This document shows positions 9,485 through 64,000 of a DNA stretch of 64,000 bases, in pieces. Origin of the DNA: Rhodospirillales bacterium. Its GTDB lineage: Bacteria; Pseudomonadota; Alphaproteobacteria; Rhodospirillales; Defluviicoccaceae. The position numbers were made by a program, and so were the translations under genes. The stretch spans positions 62,001-126,000 of the forward strand of contig REEP01000087.1 in assembly GCA_007695045.1 (NCBI GenBank). Direction: 5' to 3'. Position 1 is the stretch's first letter; each line of letters begins with the position of its first letter. Under the pieces are notes generated by a model, which searched no databases, had not been told where the DNA came from, and saw only the letters and a list, made by a program, of their open reading frames with translations.

Positions 9485-9532
9485 GGCGCCCGCTCCGGGG
9501 GCGCTAGCCAATACCCCGGGCGCGGGTACTGT

Positions 9533-10294: not shown

Positions 10295-10654
10295 GGCAGA
10301 CAGAAGCCTCCCGCCGTCCCTTTCCGGCGCCGCAAGCGCACCGTGCCGGCTCGATCCGCCACCGGCACACATCGTGCTTGCCGTGCCGCCGCACTTCCTC
10401 CGCCGGGCTCGGCATCACGACGACAAACCAACCACGGCAAACGATCGCCGGTAGCGGCACCTGCCATCCTGATCGATAGATGGGACTCGCGGCGACGGGT
10501 GGAAACGTGCTCCTTGCCGGCCTCGGCCCTTAAGAGGGCCAACAGACGGCAACGGACCACGACCTGCACCAGGGCCGCCTTCCGACGAGCGCACACCACG
10601 AACCGACATCGCGGCAGGCACCCGCCGGTTGAAGGCTTTGCGACCGCGGGGCGC
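10295..10654. other. Intergenic region, no gene recognised
   Basis: 360 bp between the hydroxyacyl-CoA dehydrogenase gene and djlA, both on the minus strand. A perfect 6-bp hairpin GGCCCT-TAAG-AGGGCC lies at 10525-10540, without a T-run. No coding signal is convincing. The djlA promoter should be near 10300-10400. Confidence 0.4.
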
Positions 10655-46129: not shown

Positions 46130-47121
46130 CCCGCCTTCCCGTGCATGCGAATGCGCGGGTCCAGCACCGCCAGCAGCACGTCCGAGAGGAACATTCCCAC
46201 CACCGTCAGCACCGCGAGAAACATCAGGAACGAGCCGGCGAGGTACATGTCCTGGCTCTGCAGCGCCGAGAGCAGCATCGGCCCGGTGGTTTGCAAAGAC
46301 ATCACCGCCGACACGATGACCGAGCCGGAGACGACCTGCGGCAGCAGGTTGCCGATGTCGGCGACGAAGGGGTTGAGCGCCATCCTGAGGGGATAGCGCA
46401 CCAGCAGCCGCCCTGGCGGCAGCCCCTTGGCCCGCCCGGTGACCACATACTGCTTCTGAAGCTCGTCCAGCAGGTTGGCGCGGAGCCTCCGGATCATCCC
46501 GGCGGTGCCCGAGGTGCCGATCACGATCACCGGGATCCACAGGTGGGCCAGCACCGACATCGCCTTGTCGACGCTCCACGGCTGATCGATGAACTCCTCC
46601 GCCATCAGGGTGCCGATGGAGGTGCCGAACCACACGTTGGCCAGGTACATCATGATCAGGGCCAGGAGGAAATTTGGCGTGGCGAGGCCGAGAAAGCCCA
46701 GGAAGGTGAGTCCGTGGTCGCCCCAGCTATACTGGTGGGTGGCCGAATAGACGCCGATGGGGAAGGCGACGATGTAGATAAACAGCACCGTCGAGAAGTT
46801 GAGCACCAGCGACAGCAGCAGCCGGTCGCCCACCACCTCGCTCACCGGCCGGCTGTACTCGAACGAATAGCCGAGGTCCCCCTGGACCAGCCCGAACACC
46901 CAGACGGCGTACTGCTCGATCATCGGCCGGTCCAGGCCGTACTGCTGGCGCAGGAACTCGATCCGTTCCCGCGCCACGATCTCGCCCTGGGCCTCCAGCT
47001 GGGCGATGTAGCTGGTGAGATAGTCTCCTGGCGGCAGCTGGATAATCACAAAGACGAGGGCGCTGATGACGAGCAGCGTCAGCAGCATCGTCAGCACCCG
47101 CCGCGCTAGGTAGACCAGCAT
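46126..47121 (-). CDS. ABC importer permease, OppB-like
   Basis: 331-residue inner-membrane permease with six helices. N-terminus MLVYLARRVLTMLLTLLVIS; FVIIQLPPGDYLTSYIAQLE is typical of the family 5 cluster. The coupling motif is YVVTGRAKGLPPGRLLVRYP. Starts 5 nt after the binding-protein stop and overlaps oppC by 4 nt. Confidence 0.93.
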   Translation of the reverse strand: MLVYLARRVLTMLLTLLVISALVFVIIQLPPGDYLTSYIAQLEAQGEIVARERIEFLRQQYGLDRPMIEQYAVWVFGLVQGDLGYSFEYSRPVSEVVGDRLLLSLVLNFSTVLFIYIVAFPIGVYSATHQYSWGDHGLTFLGFLGLATPNFLLALIMMYLANVWFGTSIGTLMAEEFIDQPWSVDKAMSVLAHLWIPVIVIGTSGTAGMIRRLRANLLDELQKQYVVTGRAKGLPPGRLLVRYPLRMALNPFVADIGNLLPQVVSGSVIVSAVMSLQTTGPMLLSALQSQDMYLAGSFLMFLAVLTVVGMFLSDVLLAVLDPRIRMHGKAG

Positions 47122-47126
47122 GGTCG

Positions 47127-49070
47127 TCAGTCGGCCCGGGCGGTAGCCGCGTCCACGAACCAGAACGTATCGGGCTGGTGTACGCCGAAGTGGGCTCCCG
47201 GCTCCCAGTTATAGACAGCCTCCGCCGGCACGTTACGCAAGCGGTTGCTGATCACCACCGGCTGCGGCACGCCGCGGACGATACCGATGGTGAACACTTG
47301 CTCGGCATGGATGTCCAGCATCCGTTCCCAGATCTCGGTTTTCTCCGCAACGTCGGTGGTTTGCTTCCAACGCTCGTACAGGTCGACGAGCTCGATCACG
47401 GGCTCGAGGTCAATGGGCTCGCCACCCTGGCCGCGGCTTTCTCGGTACAGACCCCATTGCGGCCAGTGCAGTTGCACCTGATGCGTCGGCACCAGTTCAC
47501 GCGGCGACATCTCGGGCGTGGGGATGCCGTTCTCCAGGCCCTTCCAGATGGTCATCACGCTGGAGCCGGCGAACACGCGGTTACGGAACACTTCCCGCTG
47601 AAGCGGCGTGATGTGCAGCTTGACCCCGATTTCGTTCCAGGAGTCCCGGATCAGTTGCAGGATATCCACCTCGGTGACGTCCTCGCCGGCGGTCTCCACG
47701 ATCAGTTCCAGCGGCCGGCCGTTGGGCAACCGGCGCACCCCCTGGCGGTCCCGCTCGGTCAAGCCCATGCCGTCCAGCAGCCGGTTCGCCTCGGGAATGT
47801 CGAGCGTCGCCCAGGCGGTCGCCAGGTCCGGCCTGAACAGCGGGCTTTGCGGTAGTACCGTGTTGGCGCCCTCCTCGGCCAAGCCGAAGTAGATGGTGTG
47901 GTTGATTTCGGCCCGGTCGATGGCGAGCGACAGCGCTCGCCGGAAATCCGGGTTGCGCACCACCTCCCGCCACGTCGCATCGGATACATTCAAGTTGGGA
48001 TAGAGAGCCTTCTCCGCGCCGGCCGCGGAAGCCCACAAGCGTACCTGGAAATCGTGCCGGCGCTCGCCCTGTTTCAGCACCGCGAAGTTCTCGAAGCCGA
48101 GGCCGCGGGCCTGAAGATCGGTCTCCCCGGCGGCCGCCTTGGCCGGGATCAGCTGTGCATTGGTGATGTTCAGAATCACCTCATCGACGTACGGCAGCTG
48201 GCGTCCGTCGGGGTCGACCCGATGATAGTACGGGTTGCGCCGAAATATGAAACGGGTCGAGGGCGGATCCGTAACCAAGACCCAAGGCTGCAAAGACGGC
48301 AGGTTCGGGTTCTCGTTGTTGTACTGTTGGGCATGGCGATAGTGCAAAGCTGCCCAATTACGTTGCCCAGCCTTTTCCACCCGCTCGGCCAACTCAGCCT
48401 CGTCGGCATAGTCCGCATGGAACTGCTTCAGGTAATGTGATGGCAGATGCAGATATTCCGGCCGAGCCCCGGCCAGGGTCGGCAGCAGCGCCGTGTTCGG
48501 CTGGCTCCAGGAATAGCGCACGGTGGTTTCGTCCAGCATCTCGAACCGACCGGGCTCGCCGTCGACGATGAGGAACTGCGGCAAGCCGCCCGGTGAGGTT
48601 TCCGGGTTGTTGAGCACGTCCTCCCAGACATAGCGGAAGTCCTCGGCCGTGAAGGGGTGGCCGTCCGACCAGCGATGGCCCTTGCGCAGGTGAAAGGTGA
48701 AGATGCGCCCTTCCTCGACCTCGATCCGTTCCAGGATGTCGGGGACAAGCTCCCAGTCGGGCGTATACGAAGCCAGGCGCGCGTAGCCGTAGACGACCAT
48801 CATCCGGGTATCCCGCGCTCTCCCCATCAACGTGCGCAGCGTGCCTCCGTGCTGCCCCACCTCCTTGCCCTGCGCCGCCAGGTCGACGACCTGCGGTGTC
48901 TGGGGCAGCCGTTCGGCCACGGGCGGCAACGTGCCCGCGCTCACCTCGGCCTCCAGCGCCGGCGGCTCGATAAAGGCCGAGACCGGTTGCGCCAGAGCGA
49001 CGGCAGCAACCGATACGGCCGTGAGGCCGACCCATCGCAAGAGCGTTCTTCTGACAACTGACGCGGTCAT
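47127..49070 (-). CDS. ABC importer substrate-binding protein, family 5
   Basis: 647-residue periplasmic protein. Signal peptide: MTASVVRRTLLRWVGLTAV then an Ala/Val core, cut near SAFIEPP at about 33. The SBP_bac_5 fold is shown by GRIFTFHLRKGHRWSDGHPF, YRHAQQYNNENPNLPSLQPW, FRRALSLAIDRAEINHTIYF and LELIVETAGEDVTEVDI. It is about 100 residues longer than DppA/OppA. Family 5 proteins bind peptides, but large members also bind oligosaccharides. An AGGGGAGG box precedes the ATG. The glycosyltransferase context favours a glycan or glycopeptide ligand. Confidence 0.93.
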   Translation of the reverse strand: MTASVVRRTLLRWVGLTAVSVAAVALAQPVSAFIEPPALEAEVSAGTLPPVAERLPQTPQVVDLAAQGKEVGQHGGTLRTLMGRARDTRMMVVYGYARLASYTPDWELVPDILERIEVEEGRIFTFHLRKGHRWSDGHPFTAEDFRYVWEDVLNNPETSPGGLPQFLIVDGEPGRFEMLDETTVRYSWSQPNTALLPTLAGARPEYLHLPSHYLKQFHADYADEAELAERVEKAGQRNWAALHYRHAQQYNNENPNLPSLQPWVLVTDPPSTRFIFRRNPYYHRVDPDGRQLPYVDEVILNITNAQLIPAKAAAGETDLQARGLGFENFAVLKQGERRHDFQVRLWASAAGAEKALYPNLNVSDATWREVVRNPDFRRALSLAIDRAEINHTIYFGLAEEGANTVLPQSPLFRPDLATAWATLDIPEANRLLDGMGLTERDRQGVRRLPNGRPLELIVETAGEDVTEVDILQLIRDSWNEIGVKLHITPLQREVFRNRVFAGSSVMTIWKGLENGIPTPEMSPRELVPTHQVQLHWPQWGLYRESRGQGGEPIDLEPVIELVDLYERWKQTTDVAEKTEIWERMLDIHAEQVFTIGIVRGVPQPVVISNRLRNVPAEAVYNWEPGAHFGVHQPDTFWFVDAATARAD

Positions 49071-49089
49071 CGTGCTGAACCTCCCCTTT

Positions 49090-50988
49090 TCAATGGATAT
49101 TTTGCAGCGTCCGGCGAAGGCGATCGGGCGCCCCATGCGCACGAACCCGATGATCATTGCCAAGATCGATCATGGCCATGGGGGTCCCGTCCGCTCCGAA
49201 AGGCGACGGCCATGCCTGCGGGTCGGAAGCCCTGCCACCCATCAGGGCGGTGAAATCCAGCCGGCGATCCGGATCGGGATATGGCACCGCGGCTAGCAGT
49301 GCCCGGGTGTAGGGATGCACGGGCTCATGGAACAAGACCTCCCTTGGCGCCTCTTCCACCAGTTGCCCCGCGCACATGACCGCGATGCGGTCAGCCATGT
49401 AATCCACCACCGCAAGATTATGCGAGATGAACAGGTAGGTGAGGCCGAGTTCCTTCTGCAGGTCCTTGAGCAGGTTGAGAATCTGGGCCTGAACGGAAAC
49501 GTCGAGCGCGGATACCGGCTCATCGCAGATGAGCAGATCCGGTTGCAGGGCGAGGGATCGGGCGATGCCGATCCGCTGGCGCTGACCACCGGAGAAGCTG
49601 TGCGGATACCGGGACAGATGGCGTGGGTCGAGCCCCACCACCCGCATCAGTTCGGACACCATTTCCCGGCGCCCCTCGGGGCTGCCGACGCCGTGGATCA
49701 CCAGCGGTTCGGCGATGATGTCAAACACCGTCATGCGCGGGTTGAGGGAGCCGAACGGATCCTGGAACACGTACTGAACCCGCCGGCGGAACGCCGCCAG
49801 ATCACGGGGCCCGAGGGCGAGCACGTCGATCGGCCCGTCGTCGCCGTGGAAGATCACCCGGCCGGCATCCGGCATGACGGCCCGCATGACGATCTTGCTC
49901 ACGGTGGTCTTGCCACATCCGCTCTCCCCAACCAGACCGAGACATGAGCCGCGCGGCACGCGAAAGCTGACATCATCCACCGCCACGTTCTCTTCGGTCA
50001 TGCCGGTGCGGAACAGGCCGACGCTCTTGCGGATACTGAACCGCTTGCAAATCCCGTCCGCCTCCAGAAGCGGCGTTCCCGCAGCGCGGGTGCTTCGCAC
50101 CTTGGCCGCAAGCAGATTGCCGGCCTGGTAACCGATTTCGCGCAGCGGCGTCAGCCGCTGACCGGGCTTCATGTCGAAATGCGGCACGGCATTGAGCAAC
50201 GCTTTGGTGTAGGGATGACGCGGAAAGCTGAAAAGATCCCGAAGCATGCCGCTTTCCATGACCCGGCCGTTGTACATCACCACCACTTCGCTGGCGACGT
50301 TGGCGACCACGCCGAGGTCATGGGTGATCAGCAGCAGGGCCATCCCCAGTTCCGCCTGCAGATCCTGGATCAACTTCAGGATCTGCGCCTGGATCGTGAC
50401 GTCCAAGGCTGTGCTCGGTTCGTCCGCGATCAGCAGGGCCGGCCGGCAGATCAGGGCCATCGCGATCATTGCCCGCTGGCGCAGGCCGCCCGACAGTTCG
50501 AACGGATAGGTGTCGTATCCCCGCTCCGGGTCGGGAAACCCGACCATGCGAAGCATCTCGATGGTGACGCGGCGCCCTTTCCACAGGCTCATGGTGCGAT
50601 GCAGGTGCAGCGCCTCGCTGATCTGGTCGCCGATGGTGTGCAGCGGCGAGAAGGAGGTCATCGGCTCCTGAAACACCATCGAGATCCGGTTGCCGCGGAT
50701 CGCGCGGAACCGAGCGCCAGCCGGATCCAGATGGGCCAAGTCGATGACGTCGCCTGGGCTGGCCGGGTCGCTGAGCAGGATCTCGCCGGCGGTGATGCTC
50801 GCTGTCCGCGGCAGAATGCCGAGTATGGCCTGGGCGGTGACCGACTTGCCGGAGCCGGATTCGCCCACCAGAGCCACGGGCGACCCCGGCCGCACCCGGA
50901 ACGACAGCCCGTCCACCGCGCGAATAACCCCCGCGCGGGTGTTAAACTCAACCCTGAGGTCGCGAACCTGCAACAGGTCCGTCACCAC
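49090..50988 (-). CDS. Fused dipeptide-type ABC importer ATPase (DppD-DppF fusion)
   Basis: 632-residue cytosolic protein with two complete ATPase domains. First: Walker [14 protein letters not shown] (about 41), signature [16 protein letters not shown], Walker [14 protein letters not shown]. Second: [13 protein letters not shown] (about 354), [29 protein letters not shown]. Oligopeptide-type C-terminal segments follow each domain ([30 protein letters not shown]). The GTG at 50988 or 50985 is the start; the latter overlaps the upstream stop as GTGA. First gene of the importer set, but translationally joined to the glycan genes upstream. Confidence 0.95.
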
Positions 50989-52286: not shown

Positions 52287-53456
52287 TTACGTCTCCCGAC
52301 CGGGGCACAGCGCAACGATCTCACGCGCCGTGGCGTTGCCGCCATCCAGGTCCACCGCAATCTTGGCCGGCGGCCGCTCCAGGGCCACGTTGACCGCCGC
52401 CGCCAAGCTTTCGGGTGTCAGCGCCGTCGGCTCCACCAGAGTCACCACGCCCTTGTCCGCCAGCACCCGGGCCCGAAACGCCTGCTCCGTCTCATGACCG
52501 TCGCCAAAGGGTACGATCACCGCCGGCACTGCCGCCCGCAACACGTCCAGGACGGTATTGTACCCGCCCTGCGAGATGGAGAGAACGGCGTTGCCGAGCA
52601 GCGTCGGCAGGTCGGAGCGCCAGCGCTCGACGATTACCCCGGGCGGCGGGTCGAACACCAAGTCCGCATACACCGTCTCGGGCAGGCCCGTACCGCAGAT
52701 AAACCGCCACGGCAGCCCGACCGCGCGGGACAACGGCCGCGCCGCCAAGGCCGCGCGCAGCAGCGGTTCGCCCACCGCGCCGCCACCTGCCGACACGATC
52801 ACTTCTCCGCGACCGCTCTCCAGGCCCGGGGGCGGCGGGTCCTGCCGGGGCTCCGCCGCGTAGCCGGTGTAGCCGATCAGGTCGGCGATCTCGCGCGCCT
52901 CCGGGAACGAGGCCTCCAGCGGGATCAACGCCGGATCGCCATGCACGAGGACCCGCTGGAACCAGGACCGCGCCAGCGCCACCATCTCCCGGCTGCGTTC
53001 CGGATCGCTCTTGCGCACCAGAACGTCGCGCAGGGAACAGACCACCGCAGGCCGCGGCGACGCCACCCGCGCCGCCGCCAGGAGCGGCATCAGCTCGAAC
53101 CGAAAGGCGCGGCGGCCGAACGGAAACTGCTCGATCAACAGCACGTGCGGCCGAATGCTGGCGAACTCGTCCAGCAGGCGGGCGGTGCGCGCCTCCTTGA
53201 TGGACTCATCCATGGGCACGCCGTGCTCGTCGACCAGAGATCTGAAACTCGCATCAGTGGCGCGGATCGGCGGCAGAGCAATACGGGCGCAGCCGTCGAA
53301 CGCGATCCCCGGCACGGCGGGGCCGCCCAGCACCACCCACACCTCGAGGCCATGCGCCGCCATCGCCCGGGCGAGCACGGCCGCCCGCTTGAGGTGCCCG
53401 ATGCCCAGCAAATGCTGGGCATAGAACATCACCCGCCCGGTCATCTGTCCAGTCAT
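52287..53456 (-). CDS. Glycosyltransferase, GT28/MurG-like (Glyco_trans_1_3 type)
   Basis: 389-residue GT-B enzyme. The N-terminal loop is VMFYAQHLLGIGHLKRAAVL. HVLLIEQFPFGRRAFRFEL is mid-domain. The C-terminal donor site is EVIVSAGGGAVGEPLLRAAL, SISQGGYNTVLDVLRAAVPA and VPFGDGHETEQAFRARVL. The GIGHLKR and QGGYNT motifs also appear in the gene at 55817-57046, so the two are distant paralogues. The ATG overlaps the stop of the upstream GT4 gene (ATGA). Confidence 0.9.
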   Translation of the reverse strand: MTGQMTGRVMFYAQHLLGIGHLKRAAVLARAMAAHGLEVWVVLGGPAVPGIAFDGCARIALPPIRATDASFRSLVDEHGVPMDESIKEARTARLLDEFASIRPHVLLIEQFPFGRRAFRFELMPLLAAARVASPRPAVVCSLRDVLVRKSDPERSREMVALARSWFQRVLVHGDPALIPLEASFPEAREIADLIGYTGYAAEPRQDPPPPGLESGRGEVIVSAGGGAVGEPLLRAALAARPLSRAVGLPWRFICGTGLPETVYADLVFDPPPGVIVERWRSDLPTLLGNAVLSISQGGYNTVLDVLRAAVPAVIVPFGDGHETEQAFRARVLADKGVVTLVEPTALTPESLAAAVNVALERPPAKIAVDLDGGNATAREIVALCPGRET

Positions 53457-54574
53457 GCCGGCACCTGCGGTGTTGTTAACGCACGCAGCACCGTATCGAG
53501 GCGCCGCGCCGCCACCGGCAGATCGTGGTGGCGGCGCACCCGTTCCCAAGCCGTCCGTCCCATGGCCCGGCGGCCGGCGGGATCGTCCAGAAGCCGGCTT
53601 ACGGCTTCGGCGAACACCTCAGGATCGCCGACGGGCACAAGAATACCGGTCGCACCATCCGCCACCACGTCCGGCACGCCGCCGTTGCGGCCCGCCACCA
53701 CCGGCACACCGGCTGCTTGTGCTTCCAGCAGAGCCAGACCGTACGCCTCGTTGACCGCGGGCCAGACGAACAGGTCGGCATCGGCCAGCACCCCCGGCAG
53801 GTCAGACGGACTCGTCTGGCCCCGCCATTGGACGCGCCCGGCGACAGGCTCGAAGGCCGCTGCCACGGCCGCGCGGGCGGCCCCGTCACCCACCACCGTC
53901 AGCCGCCACGGACGATCCCGCAGACGGGCTAGCGCCCGGCCCAGCACTCGGTAGGACGCGAGCTTGTCCCCCGGGCGCATCATCGCCACCGCGACCAAGT
54001 GGGGTGTCGCCACCGTCGGGACGCGTACGCGTGCCGCCGCCAGGAACGGTTCGGCATCGATGAACGGGGTGAGAAAGGCCAGCCGCTCCGGGTCCCCGAT
54101 CAGCATCCTCAGGCAGGGGAGGTCGGCGCTGTTGAGCGCGATCACCCGGTCCGCGTCGGCGATCGCACCCCCCGCCGCAGCGTGACCGTGAGCCCAGGGC
54201 CCGAGCGCTTGTTTCGGTGCGTGCGAGGCCTCGGCCACCACGTAAGGAATGCCGAGCCGCCGGCTCACCACCGGCCCCAGCCAGTCCGGCGCCTTGTGGT
54301 ACACATGATACGTGAACCAGAGTTCGGGACGTCGGCAGGCCGGTCGTGTTGCCATATGGCGGATGACGCGCCCGGCCAGTGCCTCGCCGAGCCGGGCCAC
54401 ACGGCGCTGGCGGTCGGCATCGCCGCGCCGATCATAACTGGTGAACGTTGAGGCCAGCGCGACCGTGTGACCGCCGTATCGCAGCGCCTGCATCAACAGC
54501 CGCGCCATGGTGCGGTCGCCGGACGGCACCGGGTGGTGCGGCGGCTTCATCGGCGCATAGAAGGCGACGCGCAT
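53453..54574 (-). CDS. Glycosyltransferase family 4
   Basis: 373 residues. N-terminus MRVAFYAPMKPPHHPVPSGD with RTMARLLMQALRYGGHTVAL. Donor domain: VAVAMMRPGDKLASYRVL, LTVVGDGAARAAVAAAFE, DLFVWPAVNEAYGLALLEAQ (E-x7-E) and AGVPVVAGRNGGVPDVVADG. The start overlaps the upstream GT4 gene by 28 nt. Confidence 0.92.
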   Translation of the reverse strand: MRVAFYAPMKPPHHPVPSGDRTMARLLMQALRYGGHTVALASTFTSYDRRGDADRQRRVARLGEALAGRVIRHMATRPACRRPELWFTYHVYHKAPDWLGPVVSRRLGIPYVVAEASHAPKQALGPWAHGHAAAGGAIADADRVIALNSADLPCLRMLIGDPERLAFLTPFIDAEPFLAAARVRVPTVATPHLVAVAMMRPGDKLASYRVLGRALARLRDRPWRLTVVGDGAARAAVAAAFEPVAGRVQWRGQTSPSDLPGVLADADLFVWPAVNEAYGLALLEAQAAGVPVVAGRNGGVPDVVADGATGILVPVGDPEVFAEAVSRLLDDPAGRRAMGRTAWERVRRHHDLPVAARRLDTVLRALTTPQVPA

Positions 54575-55815
54575 TGCTCTGGTTCCGCGTGAGGCAGCCC
54601 GAACCGGGCCGCGAGTTGGCCGATCCCCCGCTCGAACGGAAAGTGCTGTCGTACCCGCGCCATCCCCGCCGCGCCGAGACGGGCCCTGAGCGCCGGCGTC
54701 CGGATCAGGCGTTCCAAAGCCGTAGCCAGAGCCGTCGGATCGTCGGGCGGCACCAGCAGCCCCGTTTCCCCGGCCTGGATCAGCTCCGGGATCGCCGCAA
54801 CCCGGCTTGCCACACACGCGAGGCCCTGGCTTTGCGCCTCCATCAGGACGTTGGGAAGCCCGTCCCGATCGCCGTCGGCGGCAACCCGGGACGCGAGAAC
54901 GAACACGTCGGCGGCCCGATAGCGGGCGAGCACCTTTTCCTGCGGCAGAGCGCCCACCCACTGGATATGGTGCGCGATTCCTGCCGCGCCGGCCAGTTCC
55001 CGTAACGATTTCAGGAGCGAACCGTCGCCCACGTGGATAAACCGCCAAGCCAGGCCCGATGGCAGCGCCGCCAGAGCCTTGACCACAACATCATATCCTT
55101 TCTTCTCCACCGCCCGCCCCACCGAGAGCAGGGTCACGGGGTCGTTCGGATCGCCGCCGTCCCGGAACGAGAGCGGGCGCACCGGCAACGGGAACCGACC
55201 GAGGTCGAGGCCGTGGTAGACAAGGCTGATCCGTGCCGGATCCGGCGCCAGCCCGGCGAGGTGATCGGCATTGTAGCGCGAACAGGTCACCAGCCAGCGG
55301 CAGTCCCGGAGTTTCTCCCGCTTCTCCCATTCAGGGATCGTCCACACGTCCTTGGCGTGGGCGGAAACGCTCCACGGCAGGCCCAGGATCATCGCTGCAT
55401 AGCGCGTCACGGACGCCGGTGTGTGCAGGAAGTGGGCGTGCAGCCAGCCCACGTCCGCCGGCATCTCATGGGCCAGAACCAGCGCCTGGCCGAACCGGCG
55501 GATCCGGTTGCGGCCGGGATCGCGCCGCAAATCCCGGAGCCAGACGTCCCGGGCCCGTCGGTAGCCGGGCCGCCGGCGCACGGCCCACCACGCCCGCAGA
55601 ACCCGCACCGGCTGCTCGTGCAGATACTCCGGCAGATAGCTGACCGGCGCCAGGATCTCCCGATGCACCGGGTGCACGGCCGGATCGGTGGGACGCCGGA
55701 GCGAGAACAGGCGCATCGCCATCCCGCGTCGCTCCAGACCCCGAATCTCCTGCGCGATGAACGTCTCGGACAGGCGCGGATAGCCCTTCAGGACAACGGC
55801 AACGACAGCGTCCAC
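54547..55815 (-). CDS. Glycosyltransferase family 4
   Basis: 422 residues. N-terminus VVLKGYPRLSETFIAQEIRG is typical of colanic-acid-type GT4 (WcaL/AmsK group). VGWLHAHFLHTPASVTRYAA and WSVSAHAKDVWTIPEWEK follow. Donor domain: VTLLSVGRAVEKKGYDVVVK, HVGDGSLLKSLRELAG and GDRDGLPNVLMEAQSQGLAC. The start is a GTG at 55815, one base after the upstream stop. Confidence 0.92.
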   Translation of the reverse strand: MDAVVAVVLKGYPRLSETFIAQEIRGLERRGMAMRLFSLRRPTDPAVHPVHREILAPVSYLPEYLHEQPVRVLRAWWAVRRRPGYRRARDVWLRDLRRDPGRNRIRRFGQALVLAHEMPADVGWLHAHFLHTPASVTRYAAMILGLPWSVSAHAKDVWTIPEWEKREKLRDCRWLVTCSRYNADHLAGLAPDPARISLVYHGLDLGRFPLPVRPLSFRDGGDPNDPVTLLSVGRAVEKKGYDVVVKALAALPSGLAWRFIHVGDGSLLKSLRELAGAAGIAHHIQWVGALPQEKVLARYRAADVFVLASRVAADGDRDGLPNVLMEAQSQGLACVASRVAAIPELIQAGETGLLVPPDDPTALATALERLIRTPALRARLGAAGMARVRQHFPFERGIGQLAARFGLPHAEPEQCASPSMRR

Positions 55816-55816
55816 G

Positions 55817-57046
55817 TCACCTCGTCGCGGTCATGGGCGGCGCCGTCTCGGCGGCGGCATCGGGCGAAAACAGCAGACGCCTGGTCATCTCGTTGATCAC
55901 CTCGAGGCCGTCCAGAAGGCCGGGAATGCGCACCTCGGACGGCCGCGGCTGGTGCACCAGGTTACGGATTGCAGCGGCCATCACCGCGGCATCGCGCCGC
56001 TTGTCCACCGCCAGCATGCGCACCAGGCCGAGGGCCTGTGCCCGGGACGCCCGGATGAACTGCTCCGCCCGCGGCACCGACCGTGGCATGATCAAAGCCG
56101 GCTTGTCGAACGACAGGATCTCGCAAAAGGTGTTGTAGCCGCCCATGGCGACGATGCCGGCCGCATCCGCGATCAGGCTCTCGACATGAGCATCGAACAC
56201 GATCGTCTGGACCCGGCCGCCGAGCCGGGCGGCGCGCTCGATGAACGTCGCTTGGTCGCTGGAGCGCATGAACGGGCCTAGGACGATCAGGGCCGGATGC
56301 TCGATCCCGGGATCGTGTTCATAGGCGCGCAGGACCCAGTCCACCACCTCGGCGCCATCGCCGCCGCCGCCGGTGGTCACGAGAATGTACGGCCGCCCGG
56401 CCAGGGATGCGAGTGGACGCGTCGGCCGCTCGACCGGCGACACCGACCGCCTCAGATAGCCGGTGTAGCGAACCTTGCCGATGACATGGGGGGGCAGCGG
56501 CAATCCCTGCAGCGGATTGCACACCGCCGGCAGGCCATAGACCCAGAGGTGGTCGTAGAAATCGGTGAGAGCGGGCAGCGCGTTCTTGCGTTGCCATTCC
56601 TCTGCCAGTACCCGCGGATCATCCATCACATCACGCAGGCCGAGTACCAGTGGCGTGCCGTTCGCCTTCAGCATGGCCAGGGTATCGCGCACCTCGCCGC
56701 GCAAGCCCCAAGGTTCCTTGTCCACCAGGAAGATGTCGGGCGCGAAGGTTTCCGCCGTGTGCTGAATGATGGACGCGCGCAGGTGCAGAGTCTCGTCGAT
56801 GCCGATATCCAGGCTCAACGGCTCATAGTCGCCGTGGCGGAGCTTGATCACGCCGGGTATCCGCACGAAATCCACACGATTGCGAAACCCGAAGCTGCCG
56901 ATGATCGGCGAACCGGAGAGAATCAGGACCGACAAGTCTTTCTGGGCGCCGACCAGGGCATGGGCGATCGCCCGGCACCGGCGCAGGTGGCCGAGGCCGA
57001 ACGAATCGTGGCTGTAAATCAGAAGCCTTGGGTGCTCCTGCCGCAT
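55817..57046 (-). CDS. Glycosyltransferase, GT28/MurG-like, first gene of the minus-strand glycan operon
   Basis: 409 residues. LLIYSHDSFGLGHLRRCRAI is the N-terminal loop. VLILSGSPIIGSFGFRNRVD, IFLVDKEPWGLRGEVRDTL and LVLGLRDVMDDPRVLAEEW fit the COG4671 'predicted glycosyltransferase' family. Donor site: ILVTTGGGGDGAEVVDWVL, IVAMGGYNTFCEILSFDKPA. A GAGGA box lies 6 nt upstream of the ATG. It heads the run of ten same-strand genes ending at 44972. Confidence 0.9.
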   Translation of the reverse strand: MRQEHPRLLIYSHDSFGLGHLRRCRAIAHALVGAQKDLSVLILSGSPIIGSFGFRNRVDFVRIPGVIKLRHGDYEPLSLDIGIDETLHLRASIIQHTAETFAPDIFLVDKEPWGLRGEVRDTLAMLKANGTPLVLGLRDVMDDPRVLAEEWQRKNALPALTDFYDHLWVYGLPAVCNPLQGLPLPPHVIGKVRYTGYLRRSVSPVERPTRPLASLAGRPYILVTTGGGGDGAEVVDWVLRAYEHDPGIEHPALIVLGPFMRSSDQATFIERAARLGGRVQTIVFDAHVESLIADAAGIVAMGGYNTFCEILSFDKPALIMPRSVPRAEQFIRASRAQALGLVRMLAVDKRRDAAVMAAAIRNLVHQPRPSEVRIPGLLDGLEVINEMTRRLLFSPDAAAETAPPMTATR

Positions 57047-57330: not shown

Positions 57331-59262
57331 GTGTTCGAATTCGATCAATATGAGCCCGAACGGCGTGTGCAGCCGCGCCTGACGCCGCCGCCGGACCTCG
57401 CGACTGCGGCCGATATTGCCGAACTCTCGTTCATGGTCTGGGGCGAACATTGCATCGAGTGCGCGGAGCCCGGCTGCTACCAGTCCTGCGGGTTGTATCA
57501 GGCGCGTCCGGACGGCCGCTGCCGCCGCTTTGCCTATGGCATCTACCGGAATCGCGACTTTGCCGGGCTGCGCGGCTACGGTGCCGAGATCACCTTCAAG
57601 ACCTGGGGCAAGCTGGAGGCGGAGGGCAACGCCCTGATGGAGCCGCGACGCACGGTGCTTCGCCGAGAACGCCTGATCGCTTGGGGCGGCGGACCGCTTC
57701 GGACGATGGCGACCCTCGCCTCTTCCGGTGTCGGGGTCGACGGCTGGCGCGACTGGCCGCCGCCGCCACGCAAGATCGCACGACGGCTGCACCGTCACGT
57801 CTCGCCTGCGCATCTGCCCGACGCCTTCCGGATCGACGTCTTTAACCCCTCGGACCGGCCGGTTCCACTCCAGCTGACCATGCGCGTGGTTGCCGACAAC
57901 AGTGCCAGCCACGGTGCCAGCGGACCGTCCCGGATGCCGCCGCCGTATCTGGACCGCTTCGAACTTCCGCCGGGCCTCTCCCGCTTCCATGTCGACGCCA
58001 CCCGGTTCCACCACATCCTGACGTGCGGCCGGCGTTTCAAGATCTCGGTGATGCCGGAAGCGGAGCAGTCCATCACCCTGGTGTTCCTCGCGCTGGATTT
58101 CGTGCGCATGCGGGCCCTCGGTGCCGGTCATGTGAACGATGCGACACCGACCGCGGATGCCGCCGCCCGGCCCGCCGTCAAATGCGTCGTGTTCGATCTG
58201 GATAATACCCTGTGGCATGGCATCCTGGCCGAGGGTGGTGGGCTGGCCCTCCGCACCGGCGTGATTGACCTGTTCCGGCATCTGGATTCCCGCGGCATCC
58301 TGATCAGCATCGCCAGCAAGAACGACCACGCTTCGGCCTGGGCCAAGTTGGAGTCGTTCGGTCTCGCTGATTACGTCCTGCACCCGCGCATCGGCTGGGG
58401 TGCCAAGAGCGCGTCTGTCCGCGCCATCGCCGGGGCGCTGGACATCGGTCTCGATACCTTCATGTTCGTCGATGACAGCCCATTCGAACGGGCCGAAGTG
58501 ACCCAGGCCCTGCCTGACGTGGCGTGCCACGACGCGGCGGATCTGGAGGCACTCATCATTCATCCGCGACTGCAGGGCAGCGGCAGCGGCGAGGCCGGCC
58601 GCCGCCGCGCCTTCTATCGCGAGGCCTTGCAGCGGGATCAGGCGCGTCACGCCTGGTCTGACGATTATCTTGGTTTCCTCCGCGCATGTAACATAGAATT
58701 AACAATTCGCCCGTACCGGACAGGGGACTTCGAGAGGGTGTCGGAACTGGTCCAGCGCACCAACCAGCTCAACTTTTCCGGCCGAAAGTACACGGCGGCG
58801 GATCTGTTGCAGCGCTTGGCCGATCCCGGCCTGGACAAGATCGTGCTGGCATGCCGGGACCGCTATGGCGACTACGGCACCGTGGGCTTCGCACTGGTCG
58901 CCCGCACCGGCGGGGAGGTACGGGTCGACGACCTCATGCTGTCCTGCCGTGTGCAGGGCCGTACCATCGAAGCGGCCCTGTTCCGATGGCTGTGGGACGG
59001 CATGGCGCCGGCAGTACACCGTTCGTTGTGGGTCCGCCTGACCCCCACGCGGCGCAATGGGCCGGCCCGGCAGGTGTTGGAGGACATGGGCTTGCAACCG
59101 GATCCGGCCGGCACCGGGTACCGCTTCAGCGGTGACCGCAGGTTCGACGTGCCCGCCGTGATCGCCGTCGACGACGGCGGTGCCGGCAGGGGTGGAAATC
59201 ATGCGGCGATGCCGTCGGTGTCGGACGGCGATCCGGTCTGCCGCCCGATGACGGACTCCTGA
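57331..59262 (+). CDS. Cys-rich HAD-IIIC (FkbH-like) / GNAT fusion protein
   Basis: 643 residues in three parts. Part one (1-270) carries a cysteine array: Cys41, Cys44, Cys49, Cys53 and Cys64 (GEHCIECAEPGCYQSCGLY, DGRCRRF), spaced C-x2-C-x4-C-x3-C-x10-C, like a metal or Fe-S site, then a beta-rich region. Part two (about 285-430) is a HAD-IIIC domain: CVVFDLDNTLWHGIL, ISIASKNDHASAWAKLE, TFMFVDDSPFERAEV. Part three (about 465-600) is a GNAT-like domain (QRTNQLNFSGRKYTAADLL). FkbH proteins load glyceryl units from 1,3-bisphosphoglycerate onto carriers. The start is a GTG. It probably supplies an acyl or glyceryl modification to the glycan. Confidence 0.88.
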   Translation: MFEFDQYEPERRVQPRLTPPPDLATAADIAELSFMVWGEHCIECAEPGCYQSCGLYQARPDGRCRRFAYGIYRNRDFAGLRGYGAEITFKTWGKLEAEGNALMEPRRTVLRRERLIAWGGGPLRTMATLASSGVGVDGWRDWPPPPRKIARRLHRHVSPAHLPDAFRIDVFNPSDRPVPLQLTMRVVADNSASHGASGPSRMPPPYLDRFELPPGLSRFHVDATRFHHILTCGRRFKISVMPEAEQSITLVFLALDFVRMRALGAGHVNDATPTADAAARPAVKCVVFDLDNTLWHGILAEGGGLALRTGVIDLFRHLDSRGILISIASKNDHASAWAKLESFGLADYVLHPRIGWGAKSASVRAIAGALDIGLDTFMFVDDSPFERAEVTQALPDVACHDAADLEALIIHPRLQGSGSGEAGRRRAFYREALQRDQARHAWSDDYLGFLRACNIELTIRPYRTGDFERVSELVQRTNQLNFSGRKYTAADLLQRLADPGLDKIVLACRDRYGDYGTVGFALVARTGGEVRVDDLMLSCRVQGRTIEAALFRWLWDGMAPAVHRSLWVRLTPTRRNGPARQVLEDMGLQPDPAGTGYRFSGDRRFDVPAVIAVDDGGAGRGGNHAAMPSVSDGDPVCRPMTDS

Positions 59263-59284: not shown

Positions 59285-61912
59285 ATGGAACCGACCTTCT
59301 TTCGCTATATTCTGCGCCATAGCTGGCGGCAACAAATCGTGTTGTTGCTGCTGACGGTGGCATCGTTTCCTTTTCTCTATTACTCGCTCGAGCTGCCCAA
59401 ACGCATCATTAACGACGCCATCGGCGCGACCCAATTCCCGAGAGAGGTGCTCGGACATGACCTTTCTCAGCTCGAATACCTGTGGTTGCTGTGCTTAATT
59501 TTTCTGGCACTGGTCGGCGTTCGGTTTGGTCTTCGCTACTATGTAAACGTCTATAAGGGGCGTCTCGGCGAGCGCATGCTGCGCCGCCTCCGCTACCAGC
59601 TGTTCAGCCGGCTGCTGCGTTTCCCCCTGCCGCATTTCCGCAAGGCCTCCCAGGGCGAGATGATCGCCATGATGACCGGCGAGGTCGAACCCCTCGGCGG
59701 CTTCATCGGCGATGCCATTGCCTTGCCCGCCTTCGAAGGCGGCACCCTGCTCACCATCCTGCTGTTCATGTTCATGCAGGACCCGATTCTGGGCTTGGCC
59801 GCGATCGCGCTGTTCCCGGTGCAGATCTACGTCATTCCGAAGCTGCAGCGTCAGATCAATGCGCTCGCCAAGCAGCGGGTACGGACGGTACGCAAGCTCT
59901 CGGAGCGGATCGGCGAGGTGGTCAGCGGCATCGAGGACGTACACGCCCATGACACCTCCGAGTACGAGCGAGCCGATTTCGCCCGCTGGACCGGCAAGAT
60001 CTACGACATCCGCTACAAAATCTATCGGAAGAAATTTTTTGTCAAGTTCCTGAACAACTTCATCGGTCAACTGACCCCGTTTTTCTTTTTTTCGATCGGC
60101 GGCTACCTTGTGATTACGGGTGATCTGACATTCGGCGCGCTGGTCGCCGTGCTGGCCGCTTACAAGGATGTGGCGGCACCCTGGAAGGAACTGTTGAACT
60201 GGTACCAGCAGAAGGAGGACACCCGCGTCAAATACGAGCAATTGATTGAGCAGTTCATGCCGCCCGGCATGCTGGACGAACACCTGCAGGCCCTGCCGGA
60301 CGGGGATGTTCCCCATCTCGACGGCGACATTGTGGCCAGTAACCTGACCTATGCCGAGGACGAAGGTGTCAGGGTCGTCGAGGGCGCGAGCTTCACCATT
60401 CCGATCGGCGAACGGGTCGCCCTCACGGGCCGCGAAGGCTCGGGCCACAGTACGGTGGCCAAGCTGATCGCGCGCCTGCTGATGCCCACCGCCGGTTCCA
60501 TCCGGATCGGTGGCGCCGACCTGACCGCCCTGCCGGAAGCGGTCACCGGCCGGCGCATCGCCTACGTCGGGCAGTCGCCCGCCATGTTCCAGGGAAGCCT
60601 CCGCGACAATCTGCTCTATGGCCTGAAGCATCAACCGGTGGCGACCGCCAACCCGGACGACGCAGCCAAGCTTCAGAACGACCGATATCGGCAGGAAGCC
60701 ATCGCGGCCGGCACCACCATGAGCGACATGGACGCGGACTGGATCGACGGGGGCAGCCGAACGGACGATGCCTGCGCAGCGCTTGCCCAGCAGATCAAGG
60801 CCGTTCTGGATATCGCCCAACTGGAACCGGACGTGTTCAACTTCGGCCTTCAGGCCTCGTTCGAGCCTCGAGAAAGACCGGAACTGGCCGAGCGCGTGCT
60901 CGAGGCGCGGCACGTGTTGAAACAACGCCTGGACGAGCCGCAATACCAGGGTCTGGTCGAACCGTTCGATTGGGACCGCTACAACACCAACATGACCGTG
61001 GCAGAAAACATCCTGTTTGGCACGCCGGTGGGGCCTGCCTTCGATCTGGAACACATCGCCGAAAACGCGTACATGCGCGCGATACTGCGGGATTGCGGCT
61101 TGATCGAACGCTTCCTGGAGGTGGGGTTGCAGGCGGCACGGCTGACGGTGGAATTGTTCCAGGACATCCAGCCGGGCGACCCTATCTTTGAACGGTTCAG
61201 CTTCATCGATATGGAAACCTTGCCGGACTACCAGGCGGTGGTGCGCCGTGCCGATACCGCGGGGGTCAAGGAGCTCGCCCCAGCGGATCGCGATCTGCTG
61301 CTGGCACTGCCGTTCAAGCTGGTGCCGGCTCGACACCGTCTCGGTCTGCTGGACGAAGCGAGCGAGGAGAGGTTTCTGGAGGCGCGGCGGCGATTTGCCG
61401 AAGGCCTGCCGTCGGACCTGCGCCACTCGGTAGCCTTCTTCGATCCGGCCCGATTGAACCCCGCCGCTTCGGTCCAGGACAATATCCTGTTCGGCCGCCT
61501 GGTCTATGGGCGGCAGCAAAGCCAGCGCGCCGTTGGCACCTTGATCGCTGCCGTCATTGATCAGCTTGACCTCCGCGGCGCCATTCTCGACCTTGGTCTT
61601 CGGGCTGAAGCGGGGATCGCGGGCAGCCGCCTGTCCGCCAGTCAGCGTTCGCGTCTCGCCATCGCCCGGGCACTGTTGAAGCGGCCGGACCTGTTGATCC
61701 TCGATCAGGCCACCGCCACCCTGGATACAGCAACCCAAACCACCGTCATGCGAAAAGTTCTGGACGAACGGATGGGCGGCGGCCTTCTATGGGTGCTGGC
61801 AGAGGGAACCGACACGCAGGCATTCGATCGGGAGATCGTGATGGAACAGGGGCGAGTCGCGTACCAGGGCACACCGCAACCCCAGGATCATCGTCTGTCG
61901 GCCTCGGGATGA
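59285..61912 (+). CDS. ABC exporter-like protein with degenerate, insertion-containing nucleotide-binding domain
   Basis: 875 residues. The N-terminal ABC exporter membrane domain (about 1-330, six helices) has coupling-helix sequence LFSRLLRFPLPHFRKASQGE. The ATPase domain is abnormal. Walker A is GREGSGHST with His388 in place of the essential Lys. The signature is LSASQ instead of LSGGQ. Walker B LLILDQAT has Gln808 in place of catalytic Glu. The H-loop His is Glu (VLAEGTDTQ). About 300 residues are inserted, and the post-Q-loop motif occurs three times (SLRDNLLYGL, TVAENILFGT, SVQDNILFGR). Overlaps the cNMP-binding gene by 4 nt. Confidence 0.88.
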   Translation: MEPTFFRYILRHSWRQQIVLLLLTVASFPFLYYSLELPKRIINDAIGATQFPREVLGHDLSQLEYLWLLCLIFLALVGVRFGLRYYVNVYKGRLGERMLRRLRYQLFSRLLRFPLPHFRKASQGEMIAMMTGEVEPLGGFIGDAIALPAFEGGTLLTILLFMFMQDPILGLAAIALFPVQIYVIPKLQRQINALAKQRVRTVRKLSERIGEVVSGIEDVHAHDTSEYERADFARWTGKIYDIRYKIYRKKFFVKFLNNFIGQLTPFFFFSIGGYLVITGDLTFGALVAVLAAYKDVAAPWKELLNWYQQKEDTRVKYEQLIEQFMPPGMLDEHLQALPDGDVPHLDGDIVASNLTYAEDEGVRVVEGASFTIPIGERVALTGREGSGHSTVAKLIARLLMPTAGSIRIGGADLTALPEAVTGRRIAYVGQSPAMFQGSLRDNLLYGLKHQPVATANPDDAAKLQNDRYRQEAIAAGTTMSDMDADWIDGGSRTDDACAALAQQIKAVLDIAQLEPDVFNFGLQASFEPRERPELAERVLEARHVLKQRLDEPQYQGLVEPFDWDRYNTNMTVAENILFGTPVGPAFDLEHIAENAYMRAILRDCGLIERFLEVGLQAARLTVELFQDIQPGDPIFERFSFIDMETLPDYQAVVRRADTAGVKELAPADRDLLLALPFKLVPARHRLGLLDEASEERFLEARRRFAEGLPSDLRHSVAFFDPARLNPAASVQDNILFGRLVYGRQQSQRAVGTLIAAVIDQLDLRGAILDLGLRAEAGIAGSRLSASQRSRLAIARALLKRPDLLILDQATATLDTATQTTVMRKVLDERMGGGLLWVLAEGTDTQAFDREIVMEQGRVAYQGTPQPQDHRLSASG

Positions 61913-62400
61913 AGAGCGGCGACATGTTGTATGGCGATGTGGTGTCCGTCCTGCGGGGTATCCCGCTCTTTTGCAAGCTGGATCCCGCGAAGCTGAAACT
62001 GCTCGCGTTCTCCAGCACCTACCTCACGTTCGAGGCGGGGGAAGCGCTTTTTCATGAAGGCGACCCGGCCGACGGTGCCTTCGTGATCCGCAGGGGCCAG
62101 GTCGAGGTTCTCAGCGCGGTGGGCGAGAGCCAAGTGGTCGTTGGGACTCTCGGGGAAAACGACCTGTTTGGCGAAATGGCGATCATCCTTAACGAACCGC
62201 GCCTCGCTTCCATTCGCGCGGTGGGTCGGTTGGAAGTGGTCAAGATCGATGCCGAGGTATTCTTGCGCCTGGTCACGGAAAATCCGGATACCGCGCTCGC
62301 CGTGATGCGCTCGTTGAGTGAAAAAATCGTCCGTCTGACCGCGCGTTACAACGACTTGCAGCACCGGCTTTTCGGCTTTCAAAACCCGGCCGAGCACTGA
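61909..62400 (+). CDS. Cyclic-nucleotide-binding domain protein
   Basis: 163 residues, a single cNMP-binding beta-barrel (about 15-135) without helix-turn-helix. ALFHEGDPADGAFVIRRGQV and the phosphate-binding cassette FGEMAIILNEPRLASIRA (Arg present) fit ligand binding. A C-terminal helix follows (ALAVMRSLSEKIVRLTARYN). The ATG overlaps the exporter-like stop (ATGA), so the two are made in a fixed ratio and probably interact. Start 61909 is preferred over upstream in-frame codons inside the exporter gene. Confidence 0.9.
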   Translation: MKSGDMLYGDVVSVLRGIPLFCKLDPAKLKLLAFSSTYLTFEAGEALFHEGDPADGAFVIRRGQVEVLSAVGESQVVVGTLGENDLFGEMAIILNEPRLASIRAVGRLEVVKIDAEVFLRLVTENPDTALAVMRSLSEKIVRLTARYNDLQHRLFGFQNPAEH

Positions 62401-62561: not shown

Positions 62562-64000
62562 ATGGTCATGGTGGACCCCTCGTTCCACATGTGGGCGACG
62601 TTTGCCGTCATCGTCGTGACCCTCGTTTTCTACGCCACCGAAAAGGCACCGATGGAGGTCATCTCCATGGGCGCGGTGGCGGCGCTCCTGCTCCTGTTCC
62701 AGATCTTTCCACTACCCGGCCCGGAGCAGGAAAACCTGCTCAGCCCCTATCGACTTTTGCAGGGCTTCGCCAACCCGGCACTGGTGACCGTGCTGGCCCT
62801 TCTGGTCATGGGGCAGGGCATGGCCCGGGCCGGCCTGCTGGACGTGGTCGCGCGAACGGTCTTCCGGCTCGGCGGCGAACATCGGCAAGCATCGGTCGTG
62901 CTCGTGCTGGCCGTAGCGATGGTGGTGAGCGCGTTTCTCAACAACACGCCCGTCGTCATCATGTTCATCCCGATCATGCAGGCTCTGGCCACCCGGTTTC
63001 AGCAGACGCCGAGCAAGCTGATGATCCCCCTCAGCTACGCCGCCATTCTGGGCGGCATGACCACGCTGGTGGGATCCAGCACGAATCTGCTCGTCAACTC
63101 GGCCATGGCCGCCAAGGGCGTGACTCCGTTTACGTTCTTCGAATTCACTCTGCCCGGCACCATCCTCGCGGTCGTGGGTCTGGTCTACGTTCTCGTGCTG
63201 GCGCCCTATCTGCTGCCCAGCCGCTCGCGGCTGGCCGATACCTGGTTCGGCAGCGGCGGCCGGCAGTTCATTGCTCAACTCACCGTGGCGCCGGGCTCGC
63301 CTCTGGTCGGCCGCGGCGCGCCCGGCGGCCTGTTCGCCAGCCTGCCCGATGTCACCGTGCGCATGGTTCTGCGGGAGGAGGATGCGATCCTGCCGCCATT
63401 CGAAGGGTATGTCGCTGAACCCGGCGACGTGCTGGTGGTCGCGGCGACGCGGAAGGCGCTGACCGGCCAGACGGTGCGCCGCCAGGGTTTGACGCCGCCC
63501 GAGTTCCCCCATAAGGCCCGTGGCGCCGAGAAACCCCCGCCGAACGAGGGCGAAACGCCGTGGGGTGAGACGGGGCAGGTCGTCGCGGAAGTGATGGTCG
63601 CCCCGGCCTCCCGCTTCGAGGGGCAGACCCTGCGCCAGATCGGCTTCCATCACCAGACCCGCTGCGTCGTTCTCGGCATCCAGCGCCGGTCGCGGATGAT
63701 CCGCACCCGGATGACCGATATCCGCCTGGAAGCCGGCGACGTGCTGCTGGTCCAGGGGCAGGCCGCCGACGTCAATGCCCTCAAGGCCAACCGGGATGTG
63801 GTGCTGATCGAATGGTCGGCAGAAGAGCTGCCCGCCTCCAAGGATGCGCCGATCGCCGCCGGGATCTTCGTGCTGGCGATTGGTCTGTCAGCGGCCGGCA
63901 TCCTGCCGCTGGTGGTCACCACCCTGGCCGGCGCCGTGGCCATGGTCGCCCTTGGCGTGCTCAATGTGCGTCAGGCCACACGCGCGGTGGACCCGCGCAT
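62562..64000 (+). CDS. SLC13/DASS-type permease with TrkA-C domains, 3' end outside window
   Basis: 479 codons visible. Membrane part one has about five helices: MWATFAVIVVTLVFYATEKA, LLVMGQGMARAGLLDVVART, and the SNT motifs SAFLNNTPVVIMFIPIM and GGMTTLVGSSTNLLVNSA. Two soluble TrkA-C (RCK_C) domains follow (about 230-310 and 340-425: VAPGSPLVGRGAPGGLFAS, RLEAGDVLLVQGQAADVNAL). The second membrane half begins at ASKDAPIAAGIFVLAIGLSA and is cut off. Such proteins move sulfate, dicarboxylates or other anions. ATG 62568 is an alternative start. Confidence 0.9.
   Translation, partial: MVMVDPSFHMWATFAVIVVTLVFYATEKAPMEVISMGAVAALLLLFQIFPLPGPEQENLLSPYRLLQGFANPALVTVLALLVMGQGMARAGLLDVVARTVFRLGGEHRQASVVLVLAVAMVVSAFLNNTPVVIMFIPIMQALATRFQQTPSKLMIPLSYAAILGGMTTLVGSSTNLLVNSAMAAKGVTPFTFFEFTLPGTILAVVGLVYVLVLAPYLLPSRSRLADTWFGSGGRQFIAQLTVAPGSPLVGRGAPGGLFASLPDVTVRMVLREEDAILPPFEGYVAEPGDVLVVAATRKALTGQTVRRQGLTPPEFPHKARGAEKPPPNEGETPWGETGQVVAEVMVAPASRFEGQTLRQIGFHHQTRCVVLGIQRRSRMIRTRMTDIRLEAGDVLLVQGQAADVNALKANRDVVLIEWSAEELPASKDAPIAAGIFVLAIGLSAAGILPLVVTTLAGAVAMVALGVLNVRQATRAVDPR

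Follow-up and report, generated by a model that had tools for sequence, protein, structure and literature searches.

What might an ABC exporter do once the nucleotide-binding domain (NBD) that should drive it has lost its catalytic motifs? The locus raising this question lies in a 64,000-nucleotide stretch of Rhodospirillales DNA (hereafter, the window). There, a forward-strand gene (59285..61912) has an ATG start and an unbroken frame of 875 codons. Its product, which we call the pseudo-ABC, begins with an exporter transmembrane domain (TMD; residues 1-325, 59285..60259) identified by Pfam (ABC_membrane, PF00664, 5.4e-27) and by family alignment. An NBD-type domain follows, and its ABC_tran match (PF00005, 1.9e-24) is split over two separated stretches. 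Note that, in distant family members, this match drops to about 0.01 or nothing. Foldseek gave E values to 7.6e-18 against P-glycoprotein, using an AF2 model of low confidence in parts of the TMD. The best PDB sequence and fold matches are the type IV exporters MsbA, ABCB1, TmrAB and PCAT1, which resemble the pseudo-ABC in TMD fold and NBD frame. Hence, by structure family, the window protein is classed as a type IV ABC-exporter homologue. It differs from those exporters in lacking the intact motif set, in some 290 extra residues, and in a linked cyclic-nucleotide (cNMP) binding domain. The latter is encoded by the next gene, whose ATG at 61909 sits inside the pseudo-ABC stop codon (ATGA). The whole frame and 4-nt overlap described in an earlier, sequence-only reading are therefore correct.

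The window protein has the motif set GREGSGHST / LSASQ / LLILDQ / WVLAEG. The Walker A remnant, GREGSGHST (residues 382-390, 60428..60454, + strand), deviates from GxxGxGK[ST] with His388 in place of Lys. On the same strand, LSASQ (residues 783-787, 61631..61645) stands where LSGGQ is expected, and Walker B, LLILDQ (residues 803-808, 61691..61708), retains Asp807 but has Gln808 instead of the catalytic Glu. All three substitutions had been read from the sequence and agree with our alignment. Loss of the H-loop His, also proposed, is real but had been misplaced. Alignment to relatives with WVLHRA puts the site at Ala839 (61799..61801, +), and the Glu said to replace the His is residue 840. Similarly, the view that every catalytic motif is lost holds for motifs but not for each residue, since Ser389 of Walker A, Gln430 of the Q-loop, Ser784 and Gln787 of the signature, and Asp807 are kept. 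Intact control exporters from the same genome have GKS/T, LSGG[QE], DE and HR. The distance from the Walker A Lys position (388) to L783 is 395 residues, compared to 97 in three intact exporters of that genome, consistent with the roughly 300 extra residues reported previously.

Homologues occur in about 34% of the 385 alphaproteobacterial genomes sampled and in Oceanospirillaceae, and we aligned 126 rows of them. One row, L156, is an outlier with no matching TMD start and is best disregarded. No row has an intact full motif set, and a search for close relatives with intact motifs found none. An 81% relative (L001) has H388, an LSAGQ signature and DQ. With the whole family degenerate, a sequence error or local oddity is ruled out. 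The LSGGQ signature is present in 0 of 126 rows, with Gly-Gly essentially gone. Lys is found at position 388 in 48% of the family (weighted 0.49), and the adjacent Ser/Thr has a weighted frequency of about 0.1, with Asp/Glu there at 0.57. Weighted values are 0.21 for the Walker B Asp (Asn, 0.58), 0.46 for the catalytic Glu and 0.21 for the H-loop His. The highest count of canonical residues in any row is 6 of 10. The spacing from Walker A to signature exceeds 300 residues in all 126 rows.

The TMD is the best-conserved portion of the protein (dN/dS 0.056, window protein against L001), and values of 0.14-0.24 in the pseudo-NBD indicate that purifying selection persists. The intact frame, the overall dN/dS range (0.06-0.24) and over 100 intact homologues rule out a pseudogene, as the sequence-only reading had argued. 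Loss of NBD catalysis is strongly supported because intact homologues are absent and the pseudo-NBD remains under purifying selection. We conclude that, on comparative grounds, the pseudo-NBD is very probably non-catalytic across the family. Names such as 'ABC transporter ATP-binding protein', given to these genes in the annotated records consulted, are probably misleading. Several catalytic residues do survive in some members; of six key residues, five are present in L134 and four in L092, and some single members have K, E and His together. On that basis, these might be ordinary ABC exporters in which unusual motifs are tolerated and ATP is hydrolysed slowly. We consider this highly improbable, given zero intact members, catalytic columns that rank only 198-448 of 521 in conservation, and a sister clade without any NBD.

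A further possibility is that the pseudo-NBD binds ATP without hydrolysis. It would then be a sensor of ATP or energy charge that sets the state of the TMD, and the cNMP domain would supply a further input. The window protein retains the P-loop glycines, Ser389, Q430 and Asp807, and Gly382 and Gly387 are 84-86% conserved across the family. Furthermore, because coupling loops are kept and single members combine K, E and His, residual ATP binding is possible in some lineages. However, most members have lost the Mg2+ ligands (Walker A Ser/Thr and Walker B Asp), and the Oceanospirillaceae members have no P-loop at all (e.g. AIRCKDPSRLR). Hence, ATP binding cannot be the family-wide function, and we regard the sensor as unlikely.

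The extra segment of about 290 residues (449-739, 60629..61501, +) extends from the Q-loop region to the signature and occurs in all 126 rows. Comparison with PDB sequences gave nothing significant. The best-conserved residues of the pseudo-NBD fall within it, and N575, N733, G737, R701 and G780 are among the best-conserved columns of the alignment. As suggested earlier, a motif that follows the Q-loop is present three times on the forward strand: YVGQSPAMFQGSLRDNLLYGLK (residues 426-452, 60560..60640), LVEPFDWDRYNTNMTVAENILFG (residues 558-582, 60956..61030, with N575 invariant) and VAFFDPARLNPAASVQDNILFG (residues 716-740, 61430..61504, with N733 and G737 invariant). Profile-profile comparison links residues 532-582 to 691-740 (E 5.7e-17), 558-683 to 716-832 (E 3e-12), and copy 1 (425-447 plus 505-527) to copy 3 (E 9e-7); the remaining top matches were self-overlaps and were ignored. 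The suggestion that these repeats build additional pseudo-NBD copies finds no support in that form. It is the post-Q-loop/helical-subdomain element that recurs, rather than an entire NBD, and complete additional NBDs are unsupported because the N-terminal part of the NBD did not match the insert. In canonical exporters, this element adjoins the coupling helices.

The overlapping gene (61909..62400, +) encodes a stand-alone protein of 163 residues with a cNMP-binding fold (PF00027, 1.1e-22). The nucleotide contacts are retained (FGEMA...PRLAS, matching GE...RxA[TS]), and a DNA-binding domain, sought in this protein, was not found. A cNMP-binding domain accompanies 107 of 124 assessable homologues, encoded by an adjacent gene in 73 and fused at the C-terminus in 34. 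Across 117 distinct family cNMP domains, the contact residues are nearly always present (Gly in 115, Glu in 112, Arg in 117 and Ala in 111). Hence, the link between pseudo-NBD and cNMP domain is strongly supported. It is not universal, since 17 of the 124 have no cNMP domain nearby, including all judgeable full-length Oceanospirillaceae forms. Our comparisons make it likely that the cNMP domain regulates the pseudo-ABC. The source genome has six class III cyclase matches. Cyclases of this class lie near L163, L071, L118, L006/L007 and L082, with a weak case at L054, though such proximity may be due to chance. An MBL-fold hydrolase adjoins other loci and, where checked, in L059, matches Apyc1 (PF23023). 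A cyclase or phosphodiesterase-like gene is thus a frequent neighbour of pseudo-ABC/cNMP loci.

Degenerate sites, with Walker A Lys changed to Arg, an altered signature and a lost catalytic Glu, do occur in type IV exporters (PMC7756269). In TM287/288, TAP and BmrCD, which share the lost Glu and altered signature with the pseudo-ABC, the degenerate site is paired with a canonical one. By analogy with TM287/288, TmrAB and TAP, the pseudo-ABC might be half of a heterodimer in which an intact half-transporter, encoded elsewhere, hydrolyses ATP. Retention of coupling loops in NBD-bearing forms fits this. Conversely, an intact TMD-containing exporter is nearby in only 2 of 47 flanked loci, and on the opposite strand, and the two tandem pseudo-ABC genes of L013 are both degenerate. 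In the pseudo-ABC, both site halves are degenerate; Walker A, Walker B and signature are lost in one chain, so pairing with a canonical half would leave both composite sites compromised. A canonical NBD interface would also have to accommodate the 290-residue addition. We therefore judge such a heterodimer improbable, though a partner could still be encoded elsewhere in the genome.

Loss of an ABC motor is known mainly from SbmA/BacA (SLiPT), where the NBD is gone, and SbmA is a precedent for an ABC TMD that functions without one (PMC13316013). The pseudo-ABC family has a possibly similar branch. Its sister clade consists of TMD-only proteins with shortened ICL1 and ICL2 and an extra N-terminal hydrophobic segment, predicted as a helix in a low-confidence model, and no NBD gene was found near these loci. 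The window protein differs from SbmA/BacA in retaining a large pseudo-NBD and coupling loops; it shows neither coupling-helix loss nor gain of TM0. Neither sequence nor fold searches assigned it to SLiPT. When the TMD-only model (pLDDT 69) was compared with the PDB by Foldseek, the matches were general ABC exporters only, and the top 50 did not include SbmA.

A non-transporting role must also be weighed. The membrane domain could be a SUR-like receptor or scaffold that anchors glycosyltransferases or signals via cNMP and GGDEF modules. Fusions to cNMP domains and to a GGDEF domain with its catalytic motif lost are in keeping with this, as are the adjoining glycosyltransferases and the strongly conserved extra segment. 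However, the TMD is better conserved than any other part, and the invariant residues, polar and charged, that it carries at membrane positions are common to forms without an NBD, which suggests a working translocation path. A receptor or scaffold is somewhat unlikely. CFTR and SUR are ABC exporters turned regulated channel or regulator; both keep ATP binding, and their regulatory inputs differ from those of the pseudo-ABC.

The best overall explanation, which may well be right, is an ABC-exporter relative that is gated by cNMP, has a dead ATPase and transports without ATP hydrolysis. From a type IV ancestor, the NBD would have stopped hydrolysing ATP and become a regulatory pseudo-NBD, which grew through added copies of the post-Q-loop/helical-subdomain element. 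The cNMP-binding domain would bind cAMP or cGMP and, acting via the pseudo-NBD, change the state of the exporter-type TMD dimer. Substrate movement would be driven by an ion or substrate gradient, or the TMD would be a gated flippase. The earlier interpretation is supported in part, for catalysis loss and the cNMP link, both drawn from comparative sequence; gating, like ATP-free transport, its energy source and the substrate, is something we infer. Transport independent of ATP hydrolysis seems to us evenly poised. More tentatively, the family could sit between primary and secondary transport, with a motor turned signal receiver, a cNMP-gated ATP-free TMD, and a motor-less sister lineage. No description of a cNMP-linked, ATPase-dead exporter was found in open-licence papers. 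Here, a large conserved family retains its NBD as a non-catalytic domain, enlarged and tied to an intact cNMP sensor, making it testable how a pump is re-powered or becomes a gated device. If true, membrane transport would become a direct target of cyclic nucleotides in Alphaproteobacteria, rhizobia among them; many cyclases there have no known outputs.

The neighbourhood bears on the substrate. An FkbH-like gene (57331..59262, +) lies directly upstream of the pseudo-ABC and, downstream, a CitMHS/DASS-type anion transporter with TrkA_C domains (62562..63998, +) runs off the window. On the reverse strand, divergent from the operon, is an MJ1255-like glycosyltransferase (55817..57046). Relatives keep it as a neighbour, along with two further glycosyltransferases of that strand, GT4 (Glycos_transf_1, 54547..55815) and GT28-C (52287..53549); a second GT4 (53453..55048 as listed, with the true start downstream) is also present. 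Next, on that strand, is an oligopeptide (Yej/Dpp) importer with an intact double-NBD ATPase (49090..50988), also a conserved neighbour, a solute-binding protein (SBP_bac_5, 47127-49163) and permeases (44972-46633, 46126-47121). GT28/GT4 enzymes, a histidine phosphatase and a Yej-type importer adjoin the pseudo-ABC in several families. The substrate might, with some plausibility, be a glycan-pathway compound, and the leading candidate would be an anionic compound formed in the linked glycosyltransferase pathway, either as its product or as an intermediate. The context resembles that of Sinorhizobium meliloti MsbA2 (SMb21191), an exporter-like gene within a polysaccharide operon. MsbA2 is not the homologue in that species, being at about 938 kb on pSymB, with the homologue at about 841.7-844.4 kb. 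The TMD-only clade sits in copper-resistance operons, and substrates may therefore differ within the family.

The pseudo-ABC gene is a whole reading frame of 875 residues (59285-61912, + strand), as the sequence-only reading had claimed, and a cyclic nucleotide (cNMP)-binding frame does overlap it, starting at 61909 (ATGA) and following directly. Pfam detects an exporter transmembrane domain (TMD; 5.4e-27) and ABC_tran (1.9e-24), the latter split over two separate stretches; the next gene scores 1.1e-22 for cNMP_binding. A fold search groups the whole protein with type IV exporters. Its motifs are GREGSGHST, LSASQ, LLILDQ, and WVLAEG; in three intact exporters encoded by the same genome, they read GKS/T, LSGG[QE], DE, and HR. 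By alignment, Ser389, Gln430, Ser784, Gln787, and Asp807 are still present. The H-loop His is absent, as noted earlier; the replacing residue is Ala839, and the Glu previously named is its neighbour. The protein is an ABC exporter in structure; judged by motif, it is not a functional ABC ATPase.

Motif loss, claimed for the window protein (His388, LSASQ, and DQ), extends to its relatives: none of the 126 rows of a homologue alignment, which include an outlier (L156), has an intact set. Weighted frequencies are 0.49 for the Walker A Lys, 0.21 for the Walker B Asp (with Asn there at 0.58), 0.46 for the Glu, and 0.21 for the H-loop His. The position after the Walker A Lys is Ser/Thr at about 0.1 and Asp/Glu at 0.57. 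LSGGQ has a frequency of 0, with LSxxQRQ in its place. The best-preserved rows (L134 and L092) still miss part of the signature and one Mg2+ ligand, and in Oceanospirillaceae members the P-loop is unrecognisable. Sensing of ATP, without hydrolysis, is possible where the P-loop is kept; it fits only those members, and so is not a family-wide function.

In ordinary ABC proteins, catalytic positions are the most conserved in the nucleotide-binding domain (NBD). Here, catalytic columns rank 198-448 of 521, and top ranks go to N575, N733, G737, R701, and others in an extra segment, residues 449-739. Between the window gene and its 81%-identical relative, dN/dS is 0.056 in the TMD and 0.145, 0.227, and 0.239 in pseudo-NBD parts. 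Together with the motif loss, these ranks and low dN/dS values argue that the NBD motor is dead family-wide, and that selection keeps the pseudo-NBD for a role other than hydrolysis. The protein may be a receptor or scaffold. A canonical ABC partner, supplying the missing motor in trans, is unlikely: an intact exporter is near the pseudo-ABC gene in only 2 of 47 loci, and tandem copies at L013 are both degenerate. This pair (L013:4382-6985 and 7986-10592; Osedax symbiont genome), with P-loops unrecognisable in both, is possibly a heterodimer.

The roughly 300 residues said to be added between Walker A and the signature are borne out: the Walker A Lys position lies 395 residues from the signature, versus 97 in the three intact exporters, and over 300 in all 126 rows. 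The post-Q-loop motif does occur in three copies. Profile comparisons pair residues 532-582 with 691-740 (E 5.7e-17), 558-683 with 716-832 (E 3e-12), and the first Q-loop copy with the third (E 9e-7). The repeated element follows the Q-loop and runs into the helical subdomain, which touches the TMD in known exporters. An AlphaFold2 model has a mean pLDDT of 81.6, with values of about 90 across the NBD and insert and poor confidence near residues 143-167; it shows helix-strand pairs at every copy.

Among 124 homologues with enough flank to judge, a cNMP-domain gene is immediately downstream in 73 and the domain is fused in 34. Contact residues, in 117 distinct domains, hardly vary: Gly (115), Glu (112), Arg (117), and Ala (111). 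By these residues, the family is tied to intact cyclic-nucleotide sensing, and the contrast between this preserved site and the dead ATPase gives the strongest hint of function. Certain fused forms also have a GGDEF domain, its motif lost in 13 of 13 examined. In such fusions (L089:7739-11338, L053, L066, L083-L086, L088, and others), two of three catalytic-type modules look non-catalytic. At least two lineages have an MBL-fold gene next to the operon: that of L059 matches the Apyc1 model PF23023 (1.5e-28), and those of L163, L052, and L186 are plain Lactamase_B_2. The Apyc1-like gene (anti-Pycsar, cyclic-nucleotide phosphodiesterase family) lies directly before the pseudo-ABC gene at L059 (6978-7850), L060, L062, and L056; L059 also has an ion-channel gene (PF00520) upstream. 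Class III cyclases occur near L163, L071, L118, L006/L007, and L082. Since cyclases are numerous in Alphaproteobacteria, this proximity is no more than suggestive.

One scan of GTDB contigs returned 13 loci whose homologues are full-length (34-81% identity), from Rhodospirillales-type MAGs, Geminicoccaceae, Thalassobaculum, and Oceanospirillaceae, together with TMD-only relatives. Of 150 whole genomes in the order, 67 are positive at E <= 1e-80, and of 385 in the class, 132 are positive at E <= 1e-45, counting TMD-only and partial matches. All 27 matches in a phylum-wide sample of 398 genomes are in class Alphaproteobacteria. Homologues that Sinorhizobium, Rhizobium, and Azospirillum carry on plasmids and chromids are annotated as ABC transporters at best, and our search of open-licence papers found no published description of the family. 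We conclude that the family is real, conserved, and widespread. The S. meliloti 1021 pSymB homologue (NC_003078.1, about 841.7-844.4 kb) differs in length from strain 2011 by one base, and its open frame is shorter at the 5' end; other strains have intact copies.

The TMD-only proteins (L014-L016, L063, L064, and L070) form a sister group (support 0.96) in a distantly rooted tree whose root is uncertain. They have invariant TMD residues in common with NBD-bearing forms; no ABC NBD or cNMP gene was found in the flanks fetched around them. ICL1 and ICL2 are shortened, at coupling-helix sites, and there is one more hydrophobic segment at the N-terminus. Similarly, proton-driven SbmA has lost its NBD and coupling helices and gained TM0 (PMC13316013). 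This parallel, while not proof, suggests that the shared TMD is able to work with no ATP motor. The TMD-only genes are beside CopA, CopB, and related copper genes, so substrates probably differ within the family. A new component of copper handling is possible. The genes (including L063:8016-9230 and L064:7633-8902) sit inside copper-resistance clusters with multicopper oxidase, CopB, and cupredoxin-like and His-rich metal-binding proteins; relatives are on Thalassospira, Phaeobacter, and Sulfitobacter plasmids.

Lysines conserved in or near TM helices (K39, K84, K250, K254, and K294; Arg at 84 in the window protein) would suit an anionic substrate. Recurring neighbours of pseudo-ABC genes are GT28/MJ1255-like and GT4 glycosyltransferases, a histidine phosphatase, FkbH or FkbM, and a Yej/Dpp-type importer. 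The latter, a peptide importer with an intact ATPase in the window (44972-50988, - strand), adjoins the glycosyltransferase/pseudo-ABC cluster in several families.
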